Shown here: positions 2 through 49,169 of the stretch, one piece after another
Position numbering within the stretch: position 1 is the first letter of the stretch
Layout of the letters: each line of letters starts with the position of its first letter
Position numbers and translations under genes: made by a program
The notes under the pieces: generated by a model
Seen by the model: the letters and a program-made list of their open reading frames with translations, nothing else
What the model was told of the DNA's origin: nothing
Database searches by the model: none
DNA from: Acidobacteriota bacterium
GTDB lineage: Bacteria; Acidobacteriota; Thermoanaerobaculia; Gp7-AA8
Assembly: GCA_021325515.1 (NCBI GenBank)
Contig: JAJPHC010000002.1
Location: 62,001 to 126,000 of the forward strand
Direction: 5' to 3'
Length of the DNA stretch: 64,000 bases

Positions 2-1342
2 CCTGCGACGGCACAGAACACGGATATCGAATCTCTCTCCGGTCTTCAGTTCAACTTCGGGAACCCCGGCGCACGTTCGCTCGGCATGGGGGGCGCGTTC
101 ATCGGTCTGGCCGATGATGCGTCGGCGGCCGAAGCGAATCCCGCGGGCCTGACGATTCTCCGCAAACCGGAGATTTCGATCGAAGGCCGCAATTACCTCG
201 AACAGCAGTTGCTCACGACGAGCGGCACGTTCCCCGACGTACAGCGCACGGCATTCACGCATTACAGCGACCGCGTGCAGTTCGCGTTTGCCAGCGTGGT
301 CATGCCGCTGCCGCACAACTTCACGATCGGCGCTTACTTCCACGAGCCGCTGCGCAATTCGGGGGCGGGTCAGGTCGTCCCAGTGCGCGATCCGTTCACC
401 GGCCAGTTGAAGACGAACGTTCCGAACTTCTATCTGCCGTCGAGTGGTGGTAATCCGATCAGCAAGGCGGAATGCGATTCACTGCGCAACTCGACGAAGA
501 ATCCGTTCGCGTGTCTCGAGTATCGCGTCAACCCGTTCATCACCGCGCTCGACGTGAAGGAACAGACGTATGGTCTGGCGGGCGCGTGGCAGGTCGGCAA
601 GTTCTCGTTCGGCGCGACCGCGCGCTGGCAGAAGTTCGACGAAGGCGCGTTCACGTTCCGTTTCACGCAGGACTTCGATGTCGACAGCGTGTCGGTGCAG
701 GCGACCGCGAAAGCGAACGGCGCCGATGTCGCGATCAAGTCGCAGCATGACCTGACGTTCGGCGCCGGCATGAAGTGGGCGCCCAGCGACAAGTTCAGCC
801 TCGGCGCCGTCTACAAGAAGGGTGCGACGTTCGATACGCCGACCTTCATCGCCAACGGTCAGACCGGCTTCGACTTCGTGAAGCTCGCCGACACGACGTT
901 CCACATTCCCGATGTCGCCGGCATCGGCGTTTCAGTCCGTCCGATTCCTGTGCTGACCATCAATGCGGATGCGGTGCATGTGACGTACTCCAACCTCACC
1001 GACAACTTCGTCTCCACCGCGACGGGCATTCAGGATGCGAGCGGCTATCAGGCGAAGGACGTCACCGAACTGCACCTCGGCGGCGAATACTTCTTCCCGA
1101 CGAAGGTCCCGTTCGCACTGCGCGCCGGTGTCTGGCGCGATCCCGCGCATTCGATCGAATGGCGCGGACCGATCAATCAATTCGAAGGAGTCGCCGCGGC
1201 GCTGCTCTATCCGAAGGGCGAATCGCAGATGCACTATTCGGTCGGCGCCGGCGTGGCGTGGCCCAGGTTCCAGATCGACGCCGCATACGACTCCTCGAAG
1301 CACTACAAGGTCGGGTCGCTCTCGGTGGTCACGAGGTTCTGA
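2..1342 (+). CDS. OmpP1/FadL-type outer membrane protein (5' end outside window)
   Basis: Frame is open from base 2 (PATAQNTDIESLSGLQFNFGNPGARSLGMGGAFIGLADDASAAEANPAGL...), a FadL-like N-terminal motif; beta-rich C-terminus ending in F. Confidence 0.8.
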   Translation, partial: PATAQNTDIESLSGLQFNFGNPGARSLGMGGAFIGLADDASAAEANPAGLTILRKPEISIEGRNYLEQQLLTTSGTFPDVQRTAFTHYSDRVQFAFASVVMPLPHNFTIGAYFHEPLRNSGAGQVVPVRDPFTGQLKTNVPNFYLPSSGGNPISKAECDSLRNSTKNPFACLEYRVNPFITALDVKEQTYGLAGAWQVGKFSFGATARWQKFDEGAFTFRFTQDFDVDSVSVQATAKANGADVAIKSQHDLTFGAGMKWAPSDKFSLGAVYKKGATFDTPTFIANGQTGFDFVKLADTTFHIPDVAGIGVSVRPIPVLTINADAVHVTYSNLTDNFVSTATGIQDASGYQAKDVTELHLGGEYFFPTKVPFALRAGVWRDPAHSIEWRGPINQFEGVAAALLYPKGESQMHYSVGAGVAWPRFQIDAAYDSSKHYKVGSLSVVTRF

Positions 1343-1427
1343 AAACGCGAGGCGCGAGTCGCGAGTCGCGGGGCGCGGAAGAACCCGTCCCATGCGCCCC
1401 GCGCCCAGCGCCTCGCGCCCTGAAAAC
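1343..1427. repeat. Heptad-period inverted repeat without an ORF
   Basis: Left gcgaggc-gcgagtc-gcgagtc-gcggggc-gcgg; right gcgcccc-gcgccca-gcgcctc-gcgccct. The right arm matches the right arm at 3009-3050. Confidence 0.65.
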
Positions 1428-2621
1428 ATGGAATACGACATCTTTTTTTCCATCTGCCAGACGGAGGTACATGGGTACCTCCCGTCTGAGCGGGTGATGC
1501 TCGAGAACTTCTTCGAGCAGGTGGAGCTCGCGGACGAGCTCGGATTTGGCACTGCCTGGGTCGCCGAGTCGCATTTGTCGACCGAAGTGCAGAAGACGAA
1601 TCCGGGAGCGGTGATCCCGCATTTCACGGGCGAGATCGGTCTCAACACCGACATCCTTCAGCTTGCGCATCGCGTGTTCGGGCGGACGAAACGGCTCGGC
1701 GTCGGGTCAGCGATTCTGAATATTCTCTGCAACGGCGGGCCGATCGCGCACGCGGAGCGGATCAAGACCTTTCTCGCGCTGCACGGCCTCGATCCGAAGG
1801 AGTCGCGCACGCTGACGATCGGCTTCGCGTCGGGACGATTTCCGTTCATCAACGTGCCGTACGGGATCGTGCCGCGGAATCCCGTCGAAGCCGCGGCGTG
1901 GCCTATCGTGAAGAACAAGATCTTCGAGGAGGCGACGGAGATCTTCCTCCGCCTGCTGAAAGGGGAGACGCTGAACTCCGGAATGATCGGGACGCGCACG
2001 TTGAAGCGCTCCGATTTCCGCAGCGACGCCGACTGGCAGCGGGTGCAGGATGCAGTTGGTCAATACGTTGACGAAGTGCCTCTCGAGCCGCGCTGGCGCT
2101 TCCCGAACCTGAAGATCGTCCCGCAGGAATCGCGGATGGACCTGCTGCGGCTCTCGATCGGATCCCACGATCCGGCGACGCAGCTCTTCGCCAATACGAT
2201 CATGCCGGTCGGCGTCTTCAATCTGTCGATCACGCCGGGAGACGAGATCGAGAAGACGAATGAGCGGATGCTCACCGCGTATCACGCAGATGGCGGCGGG
2301 TGGCATCGCCGTCTGATGCCGCGCACCGTCCTCGTGTTCATCAACGACGACGCGCAGAAGGCGAAAGAAGAAGCGCACGACGCGCTGTCGAACTATTGGA
2401 AGGCGCTCGAAGGAACGCTGGACCAAGCGAAGGTGCAGCGTGCGACCAACAACGCGCTGGTCGGCGATGCGCCGGCGATCATCGAGCAGATGAAGCAGCG
2501 ATTCCATCCCGAGGACCGGCTGATGTTGTGGTTCGATTTCAACAATCACGACTCGAAGCGGGTGATGAAGAACATGCGCGATTTCATGACCGCCGCCGCT
2601 GCCTTGGGCGCCGGGCGCTAG
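1428..2621 (+). CDS. LLM-class flavin-dependent oxidoreductase (luciferase-like monooxygenase)
   Basis: MEYDIFFSICQTEVHGYLPSERVMLENFFEQVELADELGFGTAWVAESHLS...; bacterial luciferase-like N-terminus. ATG at 1428 preferred over the 1035 ORF start. Confidence 0.8.
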   Translation: MEYDIFFSICQTEVHGYLPSERVMLENFFEQVELADELGFGTAWVAESHLSTEVQKTNPGAVIPHFTGEIGLNTDILQLAHRVFGRTKRLGVGSAILNILCNGGPIAHAERIKTFLALHGLDPKESRTLTIGFASGRFPFINVPYGIVPRNPVEAAAWPIVKNKIFEEATEIFLRLLKGETLNSGMIGTRTLKRSDFRSDADWQRVQDAVGQYVDEVPLEPRWRFPNLKIVPQESRMDLLRLSIGSHDPATQLFANTIMPVGVFNLSITPGDEIEKTNERMLTAYHADGGGWHRRLMPRTVLVFINDDAQKAKEEAHDALSNYWKALEGTLDQAKVQRATNNALVGDAPAIIEQMKQRFHPEDRLMLWFDFNNHDSKRVMKNMRDFMTAAAALGAGR

Positions 2622-3027
2622 GCGCTGGGCGCATGGGACATGACGCGCGCAGAACGATTCGAGGACCTCATCGCCTGGCAACTGGCGCGCGAACTGACAA
2701 GGGATGTCTATGACGTTACCCGGTCACGTGAATTCGGTCGGGATTGGGCCCTCGCCTCGCAGATGCAGCGAGCAGCAGTATCGATCATGGCAAACCTTGC
2801 CGAAGGTTTCGATCGAGAAGGCTCTACCGAGTTCCACCGGTTTGTGACCATTGCGCGGGCGTCCTGCTCTGAACTGAAATCTCACATGTATGTCGCGCTC
2901 GATGCAGGTCATATTTCGCAGAGCGATTTCGAGCGAATGCGAATCGCAGTCGATGAAGTCGGCCGGAAGCTAGGGGCACTTCGTCGAAGTTTGAAGAAGG
3001 ACTAACAGTCCCATGCGCCCAGCGCCC
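2621..3027. mobile_element. Putative IR-flanked cassette A carrying a four-helix-bundle ORF
   Basis: Perfect 19-bp inverted repeat ggcgctgggcgcatgggac (2621-2639) / gtcccatgcgcccagcgcc (3009-3027), extended by heptad repeats (tgggcgc/gcgccca) on both sides, tightly enclosing ORF 2640-3005. Confidence 0.6.
2640..3005 (+). CDS. Four-helix-bundle protein (23S rRNA intervening-sequence/S23 family)
   Basis: FEDLIAWQLARELTRDVYDVTR...QMQRAAVSIMANLAEGFDREG...FVTIARASCSELKSHMYVALDAG; canonical IVP family motifs, 121 aa. Confidence 0.85.
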   Translation: MTRAERFEDLIAWQLARELTRDVYDVTRSREFGRDWALASQMQRAAVSIMANLAEGFDREGSTEFHRFVTIARASCSELKSHMYVALDAGHISQSDFERMRIAVDEVGRKLGALRRSLKKD

Positions 3028-3102
3028 AGCGCCCAGCGCCCAGCGCCTCGTGCCACTGGCGCCGCCATCGCACTCCACGCGTAACGTTAGAATTGAGAAA
3101 GA

Positions 3103-4164
3103 ATGTTCGACGAGTCCGCTGCTCCTAACTTCGCGCGCCCGATGCCCAACTGGCAGCCGCTCGTCGAATACCGGCGCAACGGCGTCGCGGAGAACACGGT
3201 GCATGGCGCGGTCTCCTGGGTGTCGGGCCGCAACGTCATCTACTCCTTCGGCGGCAACGTCGAGGTCTACGGACGCTCGATGGTCAAGCCGATCATGATG
3301 AAGGTCTTCGCGCGCGATTTCGCGCGTGAGCTCACCGGCGAGCAGCAGGCGATCTCCGTCGCATCGCACAACGGCGATACGGAGCATGTGCGCGTCGCCC
3401 GCTCGATTCTGCGCGAATCCGAATGGGGTCTGATGCAGGCGCCCCACGACGTCCCGCTCGTGCAGTTCGGCCGTCAGGTGCGCAGACCTCGCCGCTGGTA
3501 TCACTGCTGTTCCGGCGAGCACGCTGCGATCCTGCGTGGCTGCCGCGTGCGCGGCTGGTCGCGCGTCGGCTACGTCTGGCCCCACCATCCATTCTTTCGG
3601 GAATACCTCGGCTACATCCGCGGCGTGCTGGGGCCGGATTGGAAGATGGGAACGATCGCCAAGGATGGCTGCGGCCTGCCGACGGTCTCGATGACCGTCA
3701 CCGATCTCGCGCGCCTGTTTGCCAATCTCGTCACCGAGCGGCAGCAGGATTGGATCTGGGACTCGATGGTCGCGCATCCCGATCTCATCGGCGGTTTCAA
3801 CCGGCTCGACTCGACGATCCTCAAAGCGTGTCACGGCCGCGTCATCGCGAAGGAGGGAGCTGATGGATTGCTCGGCCTCGCGATCGAGCATCCCGAGTTT
3901 CCTGACGGTCTCGGCGTCGTCGTGAAGATCGCGCACGGCTGGAATCCGCAGGCCACCTGGTACATCGCCCGTTACATCCTCGGCGTGCTCGGCTTCGAGT
4001 TCCGCAATCCTTACAAGCTGCGAAGGCAGAAGGCGTTCATCGTCCCCGAGGTGATTCCGCCAGAGTTGCGCGAGCGGATGGCGGCCATCGTGCCGTGGGA
4101 TTCGTGGGATCCCGACATCGATCGCTGGGAGTTCGATCCGGAGGAATTCCTTGCAGCTCGGTAA
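3103..4164 (+). CDS. Asparaginase II family protein
   Basis: VEYRRNGVAENTVHGAVSWV...GRSMVKPIMMKVF...SIASHNGDTEHV-like and CSGEHAA motifs. Confidence 0.75.
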   Translation: MFDESAAPNFARPMPNWQPLVEYRRNGVAENTVHGAVSWVSGRNVIYSFGGNVEVYGRSMVKPIMMKVFARDFARELTGEQQAISVASHNGDTEHVRVARSILRESEWGLMQAPHDVPLVQFGRQVRRPRRWYHCCSGEHAAILRGCRVRGWSRVGYVWPHHPFFREYLGYIRGVLGPDWKMGTIAKDGCGLPTVSMTVTDLARLFANLVTERQQDWIWDSMVAHPDLIGGFNRLDSTILKACHGRVIAKEGADGLLGLAIEHPEFPDGLGVVVKIAHGWNPQATWYIARYILGVLGFEFRNPYKLRRQKAFIVPEVIPPELRERMAAIVPWDSWDPDIDRWEFDPEEFLAAR

Positions 4165-5575
4165 CTTCATCGGCGGTAAGTTTTGTCCACCGCATTCCGG
4201 CGCCTACATCGATGACCTCAATCCGGCGACGGAAGAAGTCATCGTCCGGATCCCCGACAGCGATGGTCAAGATGTTGACGACGCTGTCGCTGCGGCGAAA
4301 GCCGCGTTTCCGGCGTGGTCGCGGACACCGGCCGCGGAGCGGAGCCGGCTGCTGCTCAAGCTTGCCGATCTCATCGAGCAGAATCTCGAGGAGCTCGCGC
4401 AACTGGAGTCTCGCGACAACGGGAAGACGATCTCGCTCGCGCGGCGGCTCGACATTCCGCGCGCCGTCGCGAATTTTCGCTTCTTCGGAACCGCGATCCT
4501 GCATCACGGCAGCGAAGCGCATCCGATGGACGGCGTTGCGCTCAACTACACGCTGCGCCAGCCGCTCGGCGTGGCGGGCCTCATCTCGCCGTGGAATCTG
4601 CCGCTCTACCTCCTCTCGTGGAAGATCGCGCCGGCGGTTGCCAGCGGGAACACCTGTGTCGCGAAGCCGAGCGAGCTCACGCCGTTGACGGCGAACCGTC
4701 TGGCCGAACTGTCGCTCGAAGCGGGGATTCCGGCCGGAGTGATCAACATCGTGCACGGCTACGGCGCGAAGGCCGGCCGCGCGCTCACTGTGCACGACGA
4801 CGTGCCGGTGATCTCTTTCACGGGAGGCACCGTCACGGGCGCCGCGGTGGCGACGAATGCCTCGCCGCGATTCAAGAAGATCTCGCTGGAGCTCGGCGGA
4901 AAAAATCCGAACGTGATCTTCGCCGATGCCGATCTCGACGACGCGGTCGCGACGACGATTCGCTCCAGCTTCTGGAATCAGGGCGAGATCTGTCTCTGCG
5001 GCTCGCGCATCTTCGTCGAGCGCGCCAGATACGACGAGTTCCTCGAGCGCTTCATCGCTGCCACGAAGAAGCTGAAGATCGGCGATCCGCTCGACGAGAC
5101 AAGCGATGTCGGCGCGCTGATCAGCGCCGATCATCTGAGGAAAGTCACCGGCTACATCGAGCTCGCGAAACGGGAAGGCGGGTCTGTCGTCTGCGGCGGG
5201 AATCGCGTCGACCGCCGCGGCTACTTCGTCGAGCCGGCGATCATCACCGGGCTCGGCGTGAATTGCCGCGTGCTGCAGGAAGAGATCTTCGGGCCGGTCG
5301 TGACGGTGACTCCGTTCGACGGCGAGGAAGAGGCGATCGCGTTTGCGAACTCCACGCGCTATGGGCTGGCGGCGACGGTGTGGACGCGCGATCTGCAGCG
5401 CGCCCACCGTGTCGCTGCCGCCATCGACAGCGGCACGGTCTGGATCAACTGCTGGCTGCTGCGCGATCTGCGCGTCCCCTTCGGCGGCATGCGCGAGAGC
5501 GGCGTCGGCCGCGAAGGCGGCTTCGAGTCCCTCGAGTTCTTCACCGAGACGAAAAACATCTGCGTAAAGCTGTAG
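4151..5575 (+). CDS. Aldehyde dehydrogenase, 2-aminomuconic/2-hydroxymuconic semialdehyde dehydrogenase-like
   Basis: IGGKFCPPHSGAYIDDLNPATEEVI...ISPWNLPLYLLSWKIAPAVASGNTCVAKPSE...SFTGGTVTG...LELGGKNPNVIF...NQGEICLCGSRI. Overlaps the asparaginase end by 14 nt. Confidence 0.9.
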   Translation: MQLGNFIGGKFCPPHSGAYIDDLNPATEEVIVRIPDSDGQDVDDAVAAAKAAFPAWSRTPAAERSRLLLKLADLIEQNLEELAQLESRDNGKTISLARRLDIPRAVANFRFFGTAILHHGSEAHPMDGVALNYTLRQPLGVAGLISPWNLPLYLLSWKIAPAVASGNTCVAKPSELTPLTANRLAELSLEAGIPAGVINIVHGYGAKAGRALTVHDDVPVISFTGGTVTGAAVATNASPRFKKISLELGGKNPNVIFADADLDDAVATTIRSSFWNQGEICLCGSRIFVERARYDEFLERFIAATKKLKIGDPLDETSDVGALISADHLRKVTGYIELAKREGGSVVCGGNRVDRRGYFVEPAIITGLGVNCRVLQEEIFGPVVTVTPFDGEEEAIAFANSTRYGLAATVWTRDLQRAHRVAAAIDSGTVWINCWLLRDLRVPFGGMRESGVGREGGFESLEFFTETKNICVKL

Positions 5576-7615
<2,040 letters not shown>

Positions 7616-7630
7616 GGCCCCCAAGGCAAA

Positions 7631-8992
7631 ATGATCCAAAAAGCGTTTATCGTGCCGGGCCAACCCCACCCGCTACTCGCTCCGGACCGCAACGCCGGCT
7701 GGATGCGGCTTCGCCAGGCGTACGAAGCGGTTGGCCGCGAGATCGAGCGCTCCGGCGCGGAGCTGATGCTCGTCTACTCGACGCAGTGGTTCTCGGTCAT
7801 CGGCCACCTGTTTCAGGTCGATCCCAAACCGTCGTGGACGCTCGTCGATCCGAACTGGTACGAGTTCGGCGAGATCCCTTACGAGTTCCGCATCGATCCG
7901 AAGTTCGGCGAGCTGTATGCGCGGCTTTGCAAGGAGCACGGCATGCAGGCTGCGACGGTGAACTATCGCGGGTTTCCAATCGACACCGGCACGGTCGTCG
8001 CGCTGAAACTGCTCAATCCGAACAACGCGATCCCGGCGAGCATCGTCTCCTGCAACATCTACGCGGAGCGTGAAGAGACTCGTGCTCTCGGCTTCGCGGG
8101 GCGCGCGGCGATCGACCGTTACGGGAAGAAGACGATCGTCGTCGTCGTGACGAATCTCTCCAACCGGTACGAAGTCGCGGAGATCGATCCGGCGAACGAC
8201 CGCATCTCGTCGCAGAAAGATGACGAGTGGAACCGCAAGATCCTCGAGATGCTCGGCGAAGGCCGCCTCGAGGATGTCGCGCAGGTCGCGCGCGAGTTCG
8301 GCCGCGAAGCGAATGCCGACATGGGCTTCAAGGCGATCTGGTGGCTCGGTGCCGTGATGGGTGAGCACAATCGCTACGACGGCAAGGTGTGGGAGTACGC
8401 TCCGGTGTGGGGCACGGGCAACGCGATCGCCGAGCTGACGCCGAACGATCGAAAGGAAATCGAGTTCGAAAAGGAATTCGACGAAGGTCCCATCCCGAAC
8501 TTCGAAGACCTCGGCACCGGCCTCGAGACGCACAACGTACTCGCCGAAAGCCCGCGCACCCACACGCAAAGTGAAATGTCCGAGCAGGACGACATCGGCG
8601 GCCCGCCGCCCGAAGCGCACAACGTCGTCATTACGCCGAAGGCAGCGAAGCCGGTCGGTCCTTATCCCCATGCGCGGCGCGTCGGAGACCTGCTGTTTCT
8701 CTCCGGCATCGGTCCGCGCCGCGCGGGAACGAACGAGATCCCCGAAGGGATCGAAGCGCAGACGCGCTCGGTGGTCGACAACCTCCGCGCGATCCTCGAG
8801 GAAGCAGGGAGCTCGCTCGACAAGATCCTCGACGTGACGGTCTACCTCACCGACATGAAGCGCGACTTCAACACATTCAACAAGGTGTATGCCGAGTACT
8901 TCGGCGCGATTCAGCCGACGCGTACGACCGTCGGCGTTGATTCGCTGCCGACTCCGATTTCCGTCGAGATGAAAGTGATCGCCGCGATATGA
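7631..8992 (+). CDS. Fusion protein: LigB-type extradiol dioxygenase (AmnA/AmnB-like) + RidA (2-aminomuconate deaminase-like) domain
   Basis: N-terminus MIQKAFIVPGQPHPLLAPDRNAGWMRLRQAYEAVG...EYAPVWGTGNAIAEL; C-terminus VITPKAAKPVGPYPHARRVGDLLFLSGIGPR...VVDNLRAILEEAGSSLDKILDVTVYLTDMKRDFNTFNKVYAEYFG...PTRTTVGVDSLP is RidA/YjgF. Continuous 453-aa frame. Confidence 0.85.
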   Translation: MIQKAFIVPGQPHPLLAPDRNAGWMRLRQAYEAVGREIERSGAELMLVYSTQWFSVIGHLFQVDPKPSWTLVDPNWYEFGEIPYEFRIDPKFGELYARLCKEHGMQAATVNYRGFPIDTGTVVALKLLNPNNAIPASIVSCNIYAEREETRALGFAGRAAIDRYGKKTIVVVVTNLSNRYEVAEIDPANDRISSQKDDEWNRKILEMLGEGRLEDVAQVAREFGREANADMGFKAIWWLGAVMGEHNRYDGKVWEYAPVWGTGNAIAELTPNDRKEIEFEKEFDEGPIPNFEDLGTGLETHNVLAESPRTHTQSEMSEQDDIGGPPPEAHNVVITPKAAKPVGPYPHARRVGDLLFLSGIGPRRAGTNEIPEGIEAQTRSVVDNLRAILEEAGSSLDKILDVTVYLTDMKRDFNTFNKVYAEYFGAIQPTRTTVGVDSLPTPISVEMKVIAAI

Positions 8993-9570
8993 AGACGCTT
9001 CTCGCAGCCGTGACAGCAGCACTGCTCGCCGCATGCGCGAGCACTCCTTCCGGTTCTCCCGCAGAGCGCATCGCCGCGGCAGAGAAAGAGCTGCTCGCTG
9101 CGAAGCAGGTCACGCTCCGGTTCTCGACGCGGACCACAGGCGCCGTCGAGTCGCATTTCAGCGGTGCGATGAACGTGTTGCAGGGCAACATCGCATCGAT
9201 CGACGCCGACGGCGAGATGGCGAAGAAGAGCGCCACGATCCGCTACAGCGCGAACGGCAAGCCGGCGCACGTGAGCGATGCGCTCGTCATCACGCTCGTA
9301 CGGATGGGGCTTACTCACGATCTCTACGAGCTCTCGAACGGACAACCGCCTTCGTTCATCGAGAGCGGCGCGGAACAAAGCCTGAAGCTGTCGCAAGTGC
9401 AGTGGGACGCGAAGGAGAAGAAGTTCACCTATCACCTCGTCGTCGAAGGTGCAGACGCGGGTGAAGGGGAGCTCTGGGTGGGGCGGCACGACTATCCGGT
9501 GCGGCGCAAGCTGACCGTACACTTTCCCAACGGCGACATGAAAGTCGATGAACGTTACGAATGGCGCTGA
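8989..9570 (+). CDS. Hypothetical secreted lipoprotein
   Basis: MKTLLAAVTAALLAACASTPSG lipobox; overlaps both neighbours. Confidence 0.7.
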   Translation: MKTLLAAVTAALLAACASTPSGSPAERIAAAEKELLAAKQVTLRFSTRTTGAVESHFSGAMNVLQGNIASIDADGEMAKKSATIRYSANGKPAHVSDALVITLVRMGLTHDLYELSNGQPPSFIESGAEQSLKLSQVQWDAKEKKFTYHLVVEGADAGEGELWVGRHDYPVRRKLTVHFPNGDMKVDERYEWR

Positions 9571-10184
9571 TCGACATCTCGCCGGCGATTGATGCCGGCA
9601 TCGGCGTCTGGCCCGGTGATACGCCGTATGTGAAAACCACGAATCTCGAGATCGCGGCCGGCGCGAACATCACGCTGTCGGATATCAGGACGACCGTGCA
9701 CGTCGGCGCTCACACGGATGCGCCGAATCACTACATCGCGCATGGACAGGACGTCGCCTCCCGCAGCCTCGATTACTACCTCGGCCGCTGCAACGTCATT
9801 CACGTTTTCGTCGAGCGGGGCAAGCGCATCATGCCTGCGGATCTTGCCGGAAAGCAGATCACCGCGGCGCGCGTCCTGCTGCAGACGCTGACCTTTCCCG
9901 ATCATCGCAACTGGAACACGGACTTCGCGAGCCTCTCACCGGAGATCGTCGAATTTCTTCACAACCGCAACGTGATCACGATCGGCATCGATACTCCGTC
10001 GGTCGATCCGTTCGATTCGAAGGCGCTGGAGGCGCATCACGCGTTCGCGCAGCACGACATGGCGGTGCTCGAGGGACTCCTGCTCGATGGTGTCGCGGAA
10101 GGGGAGTACGAGTTGATCGCGCTGCCGCTGCGGCTCGTCGGTGCGGATGCGAGTCCGGTGCGCGCCGTGCTGCGCACGCTGTAG
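9561..10184 (+). CDS. Cyclase family protein, kynurenine formamidase (KynB)-like
   Basis: LIDISPAIDAGIGVWPGDTPY...TVHVGAHTDAPNHY...ITIGIDTPSVDPFDSK...HHAFAQHDMAVLEGL; HxGTHxDxP-type motif. Confidence 0.85.
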   Translation: MALIDISPAIDAGIGVWPGDTPYVKTTNLEIAAGANITLSDIRTTVHVGAHTDAPNHYIAHGQDVASRSLDYYLGRCNVIHVFVERGKRIMPADLAGKQITAARVLLQTLTFPDHRNWNTDFASLSPEIVEFLHNRNVITIGIDTPSVDPFDSKALEAHHAFAQHDMAVLEGLLLDGVAEGEYELIALPLRLVGADASPVRAVLRTL

Positions 10185-10256: not shown

Positions 10257-12190
10257 ACGGCGGTGCGTTTTCCCAGCAGGTATTTTTCCAGCTGTTCCGC
10301 GGCGAGCGGCGCGCTGTAGAGAAACCCCTGAATGCGATCGCAGCCCTGGCTGCGCAGAAACTCGAACTGCGCTTCGGTCTCCACACCTTCGGCCACGACG
10401 ACGAGGTCGAGACTGTGCGACATCGCGATGACCGCGCTCACGATCGCGGCATCGCTCTGCTCCGTGAGTACTTCGCGCACGAACATCTGATCGAGCTTGA
10501 GAGTGTCGATCGGAAAGCGCTTCAGATAGTTGAGCGATGAATAGCCGGTGCCAAAGTCGTCCATCGCGATGCGGACGCCGAGGCCCTTCAGCTCGCGCAG
10601 CGTGTAGATGGTGTTGTCGGAGTTCTGCATCGCGCTGCTCTCGGTGATCTCGAGCTCGAGGCATTCGGGAGGCAGCCCGCTCTCATCGAGCGCGCGGCGG
10701 ACCTGCCCCACGAGATCCGGCGCCTGAAACTGCCGCGCGGAGAGATTGACGGCGATCGTGATCGGATGATCGAGCCTGCGGTGCCACGCCCTGACCTGCT
10801 TGCAGGCGGTCCGCAGCACCCACTCGCCAATCGGAATGATGAGTCCCGACATCTCGGCGACGCTGATGAAATTCGCGGGCGAAAGAAGGCCGAGCTCCGG
10901 ATGCCGCCAGCGGATCAGTGCCTCCAGCCCGTCGATGGAGCGAGTCGCGACATTGACCAGCGGCTGATAGTAGAGGACGAGCTCCTTCTGACTCAGCGCC
11001 TTGCGCAGCATGGTCTCCAGCGCGAGCCGTTCGAGTGCGCGGGCGTTCATCGCCGGCGCGTAGAGCTGATAGTTGTCGCGTCCCTGATCCTTGGCTCGAT
11101 ACATCGCTGTATCGGCATTGCGCACCAGCGTCTCCGGGTCGGCGCCGTCGTTCGGATAGATGCTGACGCCAACGCTGGTGGTGACGAACAGCTCGCGATC
11201 GTTGATGAAGAAGGGAATCTTCAGCGTCTCGATGATCTTCTGCGCGATCTTCGCCGCGTCGTCGACGTTGTCGATGTTCGGGACGAGCAGCGTGAACTCG
11301 TCTCCGCCGAAGCGTGCGACCGTGTCGCCTTCGCGCACGCAGTGACGGATGCGGTCGGCGGCCTCCTTCAGGAGCTGGTCGCCGGTCGAGTGGCCGAGCG
11401 AATCGTTGATGTCCTTGAAGCGGTCGAGATCGAGGAAGAAGACCGCGAGGTGGCGTTCATTGCGCGCCGCCTGCGCGAGGCCGACGATCAGCCGGTCGAT
11501 GAAGAGCGGACGGTTCGGCAGCCCCGTGAGCGCATCGTGATAGGCGAGGTGCTCGATCTCGACCGTCGCCAGCTCCGCCGCCTCGCGCTCATCTTCGAGC
11601 AGGCAGGCGATCATGCCGACGCCCATCACCGTCTGCAGGAGAAAGTCGAGATAGCCGATGTAGGGCGAGACGCGAACCAGCGCGAGCGGAGCGATCGCCC
11701 CCGACATGAAGAAGGCGGCGCCGAGGACGAGGAAGCCGACGCCTTCGCGTTGCTTGCGCTTCTGCCAGAGGACGAGCGCCGTCAGCACGAACACGATCGC
11801 CGAGATCGCTTCGCGGACGCCGGGCGCGAGCCATGCGACCGCACCGGCCACTCCCAGCGCGATGAGAATGTTGCGCGCGTCGAGGAGGCGGACAGGGCGG
11901 CGCCGTACGAGCTCGAACACTCCGAAGCCGAACCACGCGATCAGCAGGCAGCCGGCCTCGCTGGAGATCACCATCAGCGGGATGCGCGCGGGGTGCGATT
12001 CCCCCAGCAGCATGGCGATTCCGCGCGCGAAGTGAAAGACCGCCGATGCCGCCCATCCCAGCGTCCAGTGGAAGAGATATTCCTTCCGGTACTGGCGATT
12101 GAAGGCGAGCAGGAGCACGGACATGACGACCGCGCCGACCGTCTGGGCGGAGAATGTTGCGGCGACCGACAGGTCGGGTGCGCTCATCAC
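10253..12190 (-). CDS. Membrane-anchored GGDEF/EAL protein
   Basis: N-terminal TM segments; AYHDALTGLPNRPLFIDRL...ARFGGDEFTLLV (GGDEF); YQPLVNVATRSIDGLEALIRW...MDDFGTGYSSL (EAL). Confidence 0.92.
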   Translation of the reverse strand: MMSAPDLSVAATFSAQTVGAVVMSVLLLAFNRQYRKEYLFHWTLGWAASAVFHFARGIAMLLGESHPARIPLMVISSEAGCLLIAWFGFGVFELVRRRPVRLLDARNILIALGVAGAVAWLAPGVREAISAIVFVLTALVLWQKRKQREGVGFLVLGAAFFMSGAIAPLALVRVSPYIGYLDFLLQTVMGVGMIACLLEDEREAAELATVEIEHLAYHDALTGLPNRPLFIDRLIVGLAQAARNERHLAVFFLDLDRFKDINDSLGHSTGDQLLKEAADRIRHCVREGDTVARFGGDEFTLLVPNIDNVDDAAKIAQKIIETLKIPFFINDRELFVTTSVGVSIYPNDGADPETLVRNADTAMYRAKDQGRDNYQLYAPAMNARALERLALETMLRKALSQKELVLYYQPLVNVATRSIDGLEALIRWRHPELGLLSPANFISVAEMSGLIIPIGEWVLRTACKQVRAWHRRLDHPITIAVNLSARQFQAPDLVGQVRRALDESGLPPECLELEITESSAMQNSDNTIYTLRELKGLGVRIAMDDFGTGYSSLNYLKRFPIDTLKLDQMFVREVLTEQSDAAIVSAVIAMSHSLDLVVVAEGVETEAQFEFLRSQGCDRIQGFLYSAPLAAEQLEKYLLGKRTAV

Positions 12191-13210
12191 TTAGGCGTCT
12201 GCGTAGACCGAAAGCAGACGCGCTGCAGCACGAGCATAGCCAAATTCGAGCGAACGGTGTGAGACGGAGTTACGGAGATCGCTTTTTCGGAGCAGCTCCG
12301 CCGCCTTCGCGGCGAGGGCTTCCGGAGTCGCGGCGGAGGCGATGTGATCGGCGCCGGTGAGCGCGGCGACGCCATCGATCGGATAGCTGGCGGCCGGAAC
12401 GCCGCACGCCATCGCCTCCAGAATGGCGCGATGTCCTTCGTCCGATCCCTTCTCCGTGAACAGCAGCAGATCCGCCGCGCGATAGTGCTCCGCAAGGTCA
12501 TCCTCGTGATAGCCGGCCCACGTCACGCGTGGTGCAACGCTTAGTTGGGATGCGAGCGCCTCCAGCGCGGGGCGATGAGGCCCGTGGCCGATGATCATCA
12601 GGCGCATGTTCCGATCGCAGGCCGCCAGCGTGCGCAGAATCTGCTCGAACCCGCGGTCCGCCGTCAGCTTGCCGATCGCCACGAGCAGGGTCGCCTCCGG
12701 CGGGATTCCATACGAAGCGCGGACGTTCTCTCCCTCGGGGTGGAACTGACGGTGATCGACCGGCGGCGGAGTGAATCGCGCGCCGGGAAGATCGAACGTG
12801 TCGTTGATCACGCAGCGGATCGGGGTCTTCGCCAGCAACGCGCGCGAGAATGGATCGGAGCGAAGCACACGGCGCGAGTGAAACGTGCGCGCGATGCGGA
12901 CGCCCTTCGGCGCGGCGAAGCGCGCCAGCCAGTGGTCGTACGTGAGATGCGCGTGCACGATGGTGATGCCGCGCTCGGTGACGAAGCGGCGAATCGCGCG
13001 GACGGTGCGGTGGAACGAGAGTGGGTTCTGCGCCTTCTCGATGAGCGCATGGGCGAAGTCGAGATGTCCGATCTTCTGCTCGAGCTTGTAGCCGCCGACG
13101 TAGGCGTAGTGCGCGTCGACTCCCGCCCCGCGCAGAGCTTCCACTTCGGCGAATGCAGGCGCAGCAGCGCCCGTCCAGCGATTCCCCGCTGCAAGATGGA
13201 GAACGTTCAT
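12191..13210 (-). CDS. Glycosyltransferase family 4 protein
   Basis: MNVLHLAAGNRWTGAAAPAFAEVEALRGAG...LVAIGKLTADRGFEQILRTLA...LLLFTEKGSDEGHRAILEAMACGVP. Confidence 0.85.
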   Translation of the reverse strand: MNVLHLAAGNRWTGAAAPAFAEVEALRGAGVDAHYAYVGGYKLEQKIGHLDFAHALIEKAQNPLSFHRTVRAIRRFVTERGITIVHAHLTYDHWLARFAAPKGVRIARTFHSRRVLRSDPFSRALLAKTPIRCVINDTFDLPGARFTPPPVDHRQFHPEGENVRASYGIPPEATLLVAIGKLTADRGFEQILRTLAACDRNMRLMIIGHGPHRPALEALASQLSVAPRVTWAGYHEDDLAEHYRAADLLLFTEKGSDEGHRAILEAMACGVPAASYPIDGVAALTGADHIASAATPEALAAKAAELLRKSDLRNSVSHRSLEFGYARAAARLLSVYADA

Positions 13211-47147: not shown

Positions 47148-47182
47148 CGCCTTGGTTGATCCTTCGCTGCGCTCAGGATGAC
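47145..47182. repeat. Dispersed palindromic repeat, inverted copy
   Basis: gcggcgccttggttgatccttcgctgcgctcaggatgacc. Confidence 0.85.
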
Positions 47183-48137
47183 CGGGGGATGGAGGACGCA
47201 CCTGCCCGCTCGTAAGTTCACCATTCCGGACGACACCAACGAAGTCCTGGCGCGCTTCGGTGATCGCGAAGTCCGCCTCACGAATCTCCGGAAGATCTTC
47301 TGGAAAAATCTCGAGCTGACGAAGCGCGATCTTCTCCAGTACTACGCCGACATCTCCCCCTGGCTGCTCCCTCATATCGAAGGCCGCGCGATGGTCATGA
47401 AGCGCTACCCGAACGGCGCGGAGGGCGACTTCTTCTACATGAAGCGCGCGCCGGAGCCGCGGCCGGAGTGGATCGACATCTGCGGCATTCCTCACGACAA
47501 AGACATCGTCCGCTTTCCGATCGTGCAGGATCTTCCATCGCTCCTCTGGCTCATCAACCTCGGCTGCATCGATCTCAACCCCTGGTATGCGCGCTGCGAT
47601 GACTGGGACCGTCCCGATTTTCTCCACTTCGATCTCGACCCCGGTCCCGGTGCGGATTTCGCGAAGGTGCGCAGCGTCGCGCTGCACGTGCGCGACATCC
47701 TCGCCGCCCTGAAGGCGCCGGCGTACGCCAAGACCACGGGCTCGAAAGGGATACACGTCTACGTGCCGATCGTGCGCGGACCACTGCAGAAGGACGTCTG
47801 GTCGCTGGCGAAGGCGATCGCGATCGAGCTCGAGTCGCGCCATCCGCAGCTCATCACCGCCGAGTATCGCAAGGTGAAGAGGCCCTACGGCCGAGTGCTC
47901 GTCGACTACAACCAGAATGCGTGGGGCCGGACCCTTGCATCGATCTATTCCGTCCGCCCCACGCCGGTGGCCAGCGTCTCGGTGCCGGTGACGTGGGAAG
48001 AAGTGGAGGAGGGAGTGCGCATCGAAGACTTCCGCATCGACAACGCCGTCGCCCGCGTGCGCGAGCTCGGCGATCTCTGGAAGCCGGTGATCGCAGCGAA
48101 GAAGCGATTCGATCTGCGAAAGGTGTTCGGAGGATAG
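47178..48137 (+). CDS. LigD-type polymerase/primase domain protein
   Basis: REVRLTNLRKIFWKNLELTKRDLLQYYADISPWLLPHIEGRAMVMKRYPNGAEGDFFYMKRAP...FLHFDLDPGPGADFAKVR...KTTGSKGIHVYVPI. Confidence 0.9.
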   Translation: MTGGWRTHLPARKFTIPDDTNEVLARFGDREVRLTNLRKIFWKNLELTKRDLLQYYADISPWLLPHIEGRAMVMKRYPNGAEGDFFYMKRAPEPRPEWIDICGIPHDKDIVRFPIVQDLPSLLWLINLGCIDLNPWYARCDDWDRPDFLHFDLDPGPGADFAKVRSVALHVRDILAALKAPAYAKTTGSKGIHVYVPIVRGPLQKDVWSLAKAIAIELESRHPQLITAEYRKVKRPYGRVLVDYNQNAWGRTLASIYSVRPTPVASVSVPVTWEEVEEGVRIEDFRIDNAVARVRELGDLWKPVIAAKKRFDLRKVFGG

Positions 48138-48149
48138 GCGCAGCCTGAA

Positions 48150-49169
48150 ATGATCCAACCTCCCTATCCACCGATGGAAGCGAAGCGCGCCGATGCGATT
48201 CCTTCCGGCGATCGCTGGCAGTTCGAGCCGAAGTGGGACGGCTTCCGCGCCGTGATCTTTCGCGATGGTGCGGACGTTTACGTTCAATCGAAGGCGGGGC
48301 AGCCGCTGGCTCGTTACTTTCCGGAGATCGTGGAGGCGATCCGCTCGATTCGCGCAAAGCAGTTCGTGCTGGATGGCGAAGTCGTGATCCCGGCCGGAGG
48401 GCGGCTGTCGTTCGATGATCTTCTGCTGCGGATCCATCCCGCCGAGTCGCGCGTCAGGAAGCTCGCCACGGAGCATCCCGCGCACTATTTCGCCTTCGAT
48501 CTCCTGCATTGGAAGCGCGATCTGACGAAGAAGCCGATCGAGGAGCGGCGCGCGAAGCTCGAAGAATTCTTCGCCGCGATGTCTAACGATCTGCTGCACC
48601 TGTCGCCGGCGACGACGGACCGCCGAGTCGCGCGCGACTGGTTCGAGCATTTCGGCGCGCTCGGCCTCGACGGCATCATGGCCAAGCGCCTCGGCGAGCC
48701 CTATCACTCCGGCGATCGCGAGGGGATGGTCAAGGTCAAGCACATGAAGACGGCCGACTGCGTCGTCGGCGGCTTCCGCTATGGAGAAGGGACGAAGACA
48801 GCCGGCTCGCTCCTCCTCGGCCTTTACAACGAGGAGAAGAAGCTGGTGCACGTCGGGCACACCTCTTCGATCCGCGCCGCCGACCGGGCGGCCCTGACGA
48901 AAACGCTGGAGGCGATGCGCGGCGAGAATCCGTTCGAAGTGCGCATGCCCGGCGGTCCGTCGCGATGGTCCGGCCGCAGCGGAGAGTGGGTGCCGGTGCG
49001 CCCCGAGCTCGTCTGCGAAGTCGAGTTCGATTACTTCTCCCAGGGCCGCTTCCGCCACGGCTCGAAGTTCCTCCGCTGGCGTCCGGACAAGAAGCCGAAG
49101 CAGTGCACGATGGATCAGGTCGTACAGGAAGGAACGGCGGGCGGCGGGACGCTGTTCAAGGTGCTGTGA
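48150..49169 (+). CDS. ATP-dependent DNA ligase (LigD ligase-domain-like)
   Basis: FEPKWDGFRAVIFRDGADVYVQSKAGQPLARYFPE...FVLDGEVVIP...LGLDGIMAKRLGEPYHSGDREGMVKVKH. Confidence 0.93.
   Translation: MIQPPYPPMEAKRADAIPSGDRWQFEPKWDGFRAVIFRDGADVYVQSKAGQPLARYFPEIVEAIRSIRAKQFVLDGEVVIPAGGRLSFDDLLLRIHPAESRVRKLATEHPAHYFAFDLLHWKRDLTKKPIEERRAKLEEFFAAMSNDLLHLSPATTDRRVARDWFEHFGALGLDGIMAKRLGEPYHSGDREGMVKVKHMKTADCVVGGFRYGEGTKTAGSLLLGLYNEEKKLVHVGHTSSIRAADRAALTKTLEAMRGENPFEVRMPGGPSRWSGRSGEWVPVRPELVCEVEFDYFSQGRFRHGSKFLRWRPDKKPKQCTMDQVVQEGTAGGGTLFKVL

Follow-up and report, generated by a model that had tools for sequence, protein, structure and literature searches.

The two-subunit 2-aminophenol dioxygenases AmnAB and CnbCaCb (PDB 8ihg, 3vsg and 7txy) consist of a beta subunit with a His-His-Glu metal site and an alpha subunit of the same family that lacks metal ligands. 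In Comamonas CNB-1, the alpha subunit, the beta subunit and a RidA protein are the products of three separate genes. The RidA-family deaminase of strain AP-3, AmnE (6izh), is a free homohexamer (PMC6742747). The classical route from tryptophan through 3-hydroxyanthranilate uses TDO, KynB, KMO, kynureninase, HAO and ACMSD, followed by an aldehyde dehydrogenase (ALDH) and a RidA. Two further families are relevant here: the class 3 L-asparaginases ReAIV and ReAV, which have two Ser-Lys tandems and a Zn site with two cysteines (PMC8602277), and luciferase-like flavin monooxygenases (LLM) such as diketocamphane monooxygenase and a Caenibius LLM, which act as Baeyer-Villiger monooxygenases (BVMOs) and convert a ketone to an ester.

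We analysed a stretch of 64,000 nucleotides from an Acidobacteriota bacterium (GCA_021325515.1, contig JAJPHC010000002.1; hereafter the window), in which relatives of all these enzymes except TDO, KMO, kynureninase, HAO and ACMSD lie in a single operon (Table 1). In contrast to Comamonas CNB-1, RidA is carried on the C-terminus of the alpha subunit, and the cluster includes an LLM, an asparaginase-II homologue (AsnII) and KynB. TDO, KynB, ALDH, RidA and an SDR beside ALDH are shared with the 3-hydroxyanthranilate pathway, whereas LLM, AsnII and AmnAB appear instead of its four remaining enzymes. We consider it probable that this fusion of an alpha subunit to a RidA of the 2-aminomuconate-deaminase type works within a gene set for tryptophan catabolism in which three activities stand in for KMO, kynureninase, HAO and ACMSD.

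Table 1. Features of the operon and its insertions, in window coordinates
Feature	Position	Strand	Evidence
FadL/TodX-type outer-membrane transporter	86..1342	+	Pfam PF03349 over cut-off; homologues upstream of LLM in L006, L008, L011, L013, L122, L125
Luciferase-like flavin monooxygenase (LLM), candidate for Baeyer-Villiger oxidation of kynurenine	1425..2621	+	Pfam Bac_luciferase over cut-off
Four-helix-bundle ORF (23S rRNA-intervening-sequence-protein-like), between LLM and AsnII	2640..3005	+	Resemblance to the 7210-7578 ORF; no HMM naming
AsnII, homologue of L-asparaginase II (class 3) and candidate beta-aspartyl 2-aminophenyl ester/anilide hydrolase	3103..4164	+	PF06089, 170.7 bits
Aldehyde dehydrogenase (ALDH), 2-aminomuconate 6-semialdehyde dehydrogenase-like	4151..5575	+	Pfam Aldedh, 581 bits; TTG start, overlaps AsnII
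REP-associated tyrosine transposase, operon insertion	5582..6232	+	NCBIfam NF047646 over cut-off
2-Aminophenol 1,6-dioxygenase beta (catalytic) subunit AmnB	6276..7199	+	PDB 3vsg_B E=7e-133, 8ihg_A 9e-129; His14/His63/Glu252
AAATTGA heptamer array, left flank of cassette	7193..7224		TRF, 4.6 copies, 100%
Four-helix-bundle ORF (23S rRNA IVP family), between AmnB and fusion	7210..7578	+	PF05635 and TIGR02436 over cut-off
CAATTTT heptamer array, inverted, right flank of cassette	7582..7615		TRF, 4.9 copies, 100%
Fusion, AmnA-like domain (residues 1-270), predicted non-catalytic 2-aminophenol 1,6-dioxygenase alpha	7631..8440	+	PDB sequence matches; metal ligands replaced
Fusion, linker (residues 271-330), mostly disordered	8441..8620	+	Variable length, poor conservation, low pLDDT
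Fusion, RidA-family domain (residues 331-453 and stop), predicted 2-aminomuconate-deaminase type	8621..8992	+	NCBIfam TIGR00004 (Rid family) over cut-off, 111.2 bits; 6izh; signature P346-H347, R431, K448
Lipoprotein-like ORF between fusion and KynB	8989..9570	+	NCBIfam lipoprotein match below cut-off; no Pfam match
KynB arylformamidase, N-formylkynurenine to kynurenine	9561..10184	+	TIGR03035, 229.8 bits (equivalog cut-off 223.05)

The fusion protein and its catalytic partner

The frame at 7631-8992 on the forward strand translates without interruption into 453 residues, of which 23-259 match LigB (57.9 bits, cut-off 26.3) and 337-453 match Ribonuc_L-PSP/RidA (103.3 bits, cut-off 27.3) in Pfam. 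An AlphaFold2 model has confident domains at about 1-275 and 331-453, with pLDDT below 50 over linker residues 293-329. Translation, Pfam, NCBIfam and the model thus bear out the first-pass annotation, which had described one uninterrupted frame with a LigB domain, a linker and a complete RidA domain. The search for LigB+RidA fusions that it had proposed recovered the same architecture in several phyla: 23 sequences in which a single frame covers the two domains were aligned, and they come from Acidobacteriota, Bdellovibrionota, marine Euryarchaeota MAGs and one Pseudomonadota MAG. In this alignment, the other sequences are 47-81% identical to the window protein, and the linkers are weakly conserved and vary in length from 44 to 89 residues. 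Since a same-frame fusion recurs across phyla with variable linkers, we can exclude chance, a lost stop and a sequencing frameshift, the kind of error between the domains that had been named as fatal to the reading. The joining of a LigB-family domain to RidA is a genuine, recurrent architecture. An internal start within the linker (MSEQDD, residue 317) was considered as the mark of a separate RidA gene and rejected, being absent from other linkers; initiation may occur there despite this lack of conservation. Frames of 677-683 residues that seemed to fuse ALDH to RidA in G145, G092 and G119 were also dismissed, because ALDH and RidA are read in different frames there; the apparent long frame is an artefact of GC-rich sequence.

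The two parts also occur apart. Alpha and RidA are separate adjoining genes in five Planctomycetota loci (L018, L020, L022, L030 and L031), and in some other lineages (L032-L035, L045) alpha stands without an adjoining RidA. On a tree of the AmnA (alpha) domain, the fused state needs four label changes, at least three of them forced by well-supported branches. A single origin is therefore rejected, and the fusion must have been gained or lost repeatedly.

The N-terminal domain (residues 2-269) is closest in the PDB to the alpha subunits of 2-aminophenol and 2-amino-5-chlorophenol 1,6-dioxygenases (7txy_A, 2.4e-55; 3vsg_A, 4.3e-51; 8ihg_B, 9.7e-49). In an alignment of the protein to beta subunits, Gly, Gln and Asp occupy the places of His13, His62 and Glu251 of 3vsg_B, which we take to be the metal ligands, whereas the beta family, including the AmnB encoded just upstream, keeps His-His-Glu. 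The fusion protein thus resembles proven alpha subunits, lies next to a ligand-bearing AmnB and is missing the His-His-Glu Fe(II) site of its own that a catalytic LigB extradiol dioxygenase would have. With all three ligands replaced, the alpha domain is predicted to carry out no ring cleavage itself, and on sequence grounds the fusion protein is the structural partner of AmnB, the catalytic subunit and holder of the metal site. The first-pass description of this half as 2-aminophenol dioxygenase-like was right about the family and wrong in implying a catalytic role.

The fused RidA has a Rid fold and carries Pro-His (P346, H347) where ordinary RidA proteins have Ser-Gln, and Lys448, the equivalent of Lys135, where these have Glu or Asp. 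Arg431, the equivalent of Arg117, is invariant in the alignment, so the conserved arginine noticed near the C-terminus in the first-pass annotation is indeed present. AmnE is among the best PDB matches of the domain and shares with it the Pro-His in place of Ser-Gln as well as the Ser, Gly, Asn, Arg and Lys; the window domain differs in having Asp at the position of AmnE Glu88 and in being covalently tethered. One could argue that the RidA half is a generic enamine or imine scavenger that guards the dioxygenase, in which case the fusion would say nothing about the pathway, and hydrolysis of reactive enamines is indeed common to RidA-family proteins (PMC4433059). We regard this as very improbable, given that the AmnE-type Pro-His and Lys are found in all of the more than 50 pathway homologues inspected, fused and unfused RidAs next to ALDH alike, and not in the two ordinary RidA genes of this genome (L003 and L004), which have Ser-Gln and Asp. 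By this signature, the fused domain is a specialised RidA of the predicted 2-aminomuconate-deaminase type. Of the two functions originally offered for it, deamination of 2-aminomuconate is retained and general removal of reactive enamines or imines is dropped; the name AmnD given to the deaminase also needs correction, as the nomenclature of strain AP-3 uses AmnE for the deaminase and AmnD for the decarboxylase (PMC6742747).

Gene neighbourhood and the exchange with classical kynurenine genes

In the window, the genes run in the order FadL, LLM, AsnII, ALDH, AmnB, alpha::RidA, lipoprotein-like ORF and KynB, interrupted by a transposase and two four-helix-bundle ORFs. In relatives without insertions, the core genes overlap or almost touch. 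The LLM-AsnII spacing is -4 bp in L008, L018, L027 and L032, ALDH-AmnB and AmnB-alpha are often spaced by -4 bp as well, and LLM, AsnII and ALDH overlap or almost touch in most relatives. The four-helix-bundle ORF between LLM and AsnII is probably inserted, as these two genes are almost contiguous in relatives. The inverted heptamer flanks of the ORF at 7210-7578, together with a similar ORF at this point of the operon in L005 and L013, suggest a small mobile or recurrently inserted cassette. Heptamer arrays (TGGGCGC at 2605-2637, CCCAGCG at 3010-3047) also border the ORF at 2640-3005, so the window operon holds two such cassettes. Promoter and terminator scans returned nothing beyond chance, and no flavin reductase was identified within the operon. 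Outside the operon, two adjoining window ORFs at 47178-49166 resemble the polymerase and ligase parts of bacterial LigD, here as separate genes.

The neighbours point to the substrate. AMSDH structures (4npi, 4i1w and 7bzv) are among the best PDB matches of the ALDH, and, together with the 3vsg and 8ihg matches of AmnB, they uphold the earlier view that these two genes fit the 2-aminomuconate pathway. KynB lies next to the cluster in Acidobacteriota, Planctomycetota and L032, and TDO adjoins LLM in four genomes (G115, G198, G300 and G305); the L018 locus reads TDO-SDR-LLM-AsnII-ALDH-AmnB-alpha-RidA-KynB. Taken together, KynB, the TDO linkage and the AMSDH-like ALDH make the cluster read as one for tryptophan catabolism. 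This genome has both enzymes of the canonical entry to kynurenine: KynB scores over its equivalog cut-off, and a divergent TDO-family protein, over the Pfam cut-off and below that of TIGR03036, is encoded at a site unlinked to the cluster. In the marine Euryarchaeota MAGs (L023-L029, L039), a gene for an amino-acid-permease-like transporter and a PanB-like gene follow the fusion, the transporter perhaps serving substrate uptake.

Fifteen genomes with the fusion, or with its counterpart as separate genes, were compared with 34 Acidobacteriota that encode a RidA at least 50% identical to the fused domain and no AmnAB; every genome in this comparison was chosen by a RidA or fusion match. LLM is present in all 15 (14 intact, one remnant in G029) and in none of the 34, as is AsnII at 60% identity or more. 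The classical genes have the opposite distribution. KMO is found in 0/15 against 32/34, kynureninase over cut-off in 0/15 against 29/34, HAO over cut-off in 0/15 against 32/34, and an ACMSD-like protein at 44% identity or more in 0/15 against 32/34, with a 37% paralogue in G246. Within Acidobacteriota alone (7 against 34 genomes), Fisher values range from 3.5e-5 to 4.4e-8 when relatedness is ignored. The same pattern appears in the eight genomes to which loci of Bdellovibrionota, Planctomycetota, Pseudomonadota and Euryarchaeota led, and a dispersed arrangement of the genes (G246, G115, G198 and G302) does not break it. The genome of the window lacks all four enzymes that the canonical pathway uses after kynurenine (KMO, kynureninase, HAO and ACMSD) and does not have even a kynureninase-like match. 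Among 297 sampled Acidobacteriota, LLM occurs in eight: the seven fusion/AmnAB genomes and G222, which has LLM-AsnII-ALDH and no detected fusion or AmnAB. In G029 (L013), AsnII, ALDH, the fusion and KynB are still present, but LLM has shrunk to a remnant of 63 residues and AmnB was not detected; this operon seems to be decaying. The fusion, its domain identities, the lost alpha ligands, the RidA signature, the clustering and this complementary distribution are all visible in the sequences themselves.

Two candidates were set aside in this comparison. The kynureninase-like proteins of G246 and G029 reach about half of the cut-off, and the neighbour of the former is an unrelated oxygenase-like ORF. 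Separately, G092 (L099) has a compact classical cluster at 3008-8102 and 10436-13160, comprising ACMSD, kynureninase, KMO, TDO and KynB, then ALDH, RidA and SDR. As the SDR thus stands beside ALDH in a classical cluster too, it lies outside the exchange.

It could be that the gene set degrades some other aryl-aspartyl or aminophenol compound and that its linkage to KynB and TDO is incidental, a reading consistent with the unlinked TDO-like gene of this genome. This seems quite improbable to us, considering how widely KynB is adjacent, that TDO adjoins LLM in four genomes, and that the loss of four kynurenine enzymes in a complementary pattern is in keeping with kynurenine as the substrate.

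A proposed route from kynurenine to 2-aminomuconate

Beyond what the first-pass annotation had proposed, the most likely source of the 2-aminophenol is tryptophan via kynurenine. Kynurenine is the common starting point of the two gene sets and 2-aminomuconate semialdehyde their common end, so that LLM, AsnII and AmnAB would stand in place of KMO, kynureninase, HAO and ACMSD. To convert kynurenine to 2-aminophenol, oxygen must be placed on the ring carbon that bears the ketone and the side chain must be removed; Baeyer-Villiger oxidation and hydrolysis fit these demands and leave aspartate. On balance, we favour an undescribed tryptophan route, used by bacteria and marine archaea, in which LLM oxidises kynurenine, an asparaginase-fold hydrolase releases aspartate and 2-aminophenol, and a dioxygenase with a deaminase-bearing structural subunit feeds 2-aminomuconate metabolism. 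We infer each of its reactions, above all those of LLM and AsnII. TDO and KynB would convert tryptophan to kynurenine. LLM would then place an oxygen atom beside the aryl ketone, and the product would be the 2-aminophenyl beta-ester of aspartate. Phenyl esters with an ortho-amino group are prone to rearrangement into anilides, and this ester may become N-(2-hydroxyphenyl)asparagine. Because the rearranged product is an asparagine derivative, the coupling of an asparaginase-family enzyme to a monooxygenase would make sense. AsnII would hydrolyse the ester or anilide to aspartate and 2-aminophenol, AmnAB would cleave the 2-aminophenol ring to 2-aminomuconate semialdehyde, ALDH would oxidise this to 2-aminomuconate, and the fused RidA would deaminate the latter to 4-oxalocrotonate. 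In the openly licensed literature we found no paper on a kynurenine-to-2-aminophenol route and no account of a LigB-RidA fusion.

LLM has no sequence match in the PDB. Its AlphaFold2 model (pLDDT 86.8) matches luciferase-fold monooxygenases in Foldseek, including LuxAB and the type II BVMO 4uwm. This true BVMO (TM 0.53, about 14% identity over the fold alignment) ranks below luciferases (TM about 0.6), and the modelled fold is luciferase-like but does not single out Baeyer-Villiger chemistry, an activity that is putative for the window LLM. Members of the family do oxidise ketones in this way, as in the conversion of progesterone to testosterone acetate (PMC12239570). An LLM homologue from a cultured organism, on the Streptomyces clavuligerus plasmid pCLA1 (L129, 15001-16242, 49% identity), has no pathway gene beside it and is a related enzyme, though probably a different one.

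AsnII matches ReAIV (8cly, about 78 bits) and ReAV (7os3) in the PDB. Both Ser-Lys tandems (Ser48, Lys51, Ser80 and Lys263 in ReAV) are retained, along with both cysteines of the Zn site. AsnII differs from ReAIV and ReAV in its operon context and in the third Zn ligand, Lys138, which is replaced by Glu in the window protein and most members of the family and kept as Lys in Bdellovibrionota. In L045 the Zn site is lost. The Zn of ReAV anchors the alpha-amino and alpha-carboxyl groups of the substrate (PMC12951835). This genome has another AsnII paralogue, on C18.

Two other ways of using LLM and AsnII have to be weighed, each of which we judge unlikely. In one, LLM is a C3 hydroxylase of kynurenine, 3-hydroxykynurenine is split by AsnII or some other enzyme to yield 3-hydroxyanthranilate, and AmnAB replaces HAO in cleaving the latter. 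The missing enzymes would then be accounted for as KMO, kynureninase and HAO, the end product would be the same, and TDO, KynB, ALDH and RidA would be shared. Such a route, however, needs a decarboxylase, and an ACMSD-type enzyme is absent in 15/15 genomes, G246 having only the paralogue noted above; this absence is evidence against 3-hydroxyanthranilate as the ring-cleavage substrate. AmnB is, moreover, close to proven 2-aminophenol and aminochlorophenol dioxygenases, and a Ser-Lys amidase fold is unlikely to serve as a PLP-free kynureninase. In the other, an unrecognised kynureninase, possibly AsnII acting as a C-C hydrolase, yields anthranilate, which LLM turns into 2-aminophenol by decarboxylating hydroxylation. 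This too would make 2-aminophenol and is compatible with the gene losses, and distant kynureninase-like proteins do exist in G246 and G029. It is countered by the lack of any kynureninase-like match in the genome of the window and by the catalytic set of AsnII, which is that of a beta-aspartyl amidase or esterase; we also know of no LLM that performs decarboxylating hydroxylation of anthranilate.

Possible role of the tether and wider meaning

With the ALDH step falling between ring cleavage and deamination, the fused domains serve steps that are not consecutive, and the earlier suggestion that 2-aminomuconate semialdehyde is channelled between the fused domains is at odds with the order of the pathway. 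The fusion probably tethers deaminase domains to the AmnAB dioxygenase, and we infer that its likely benefit is co-localisation. The semialdehyde is described as unstable and able to cyclise spontaneously (PMC10143591, PMC4286809). One particle could arise from dimeric dioxygenase pairs and trimeric RidA domains and recruit ALDH around the cyclising aldehyde.

If assays confirm it, the Baeyer-Villiger route would be new to metabolism. Tryptophan would then be broken down without 3-hydroxykynurenine, 3-hydroxyanthranilate or the release of alanine, three activities taking over from four classical enzymes and arriving at the same intermediate. The 2-aminophenol dioxygenases, otherwise known from pollutant degraders, would gain a biological origin, and an asparaginase-II-family enzyme and an LLM would each gain a physiological role. 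The fusion itself would be an example of tethering two non-consecutive enzymes around the unstable 2-aminomuconate semialdehyde. An annotation pipeline keyed to kynureninase or HAO would score organisms with this gene set as unable to degrade tryptophan by this route.
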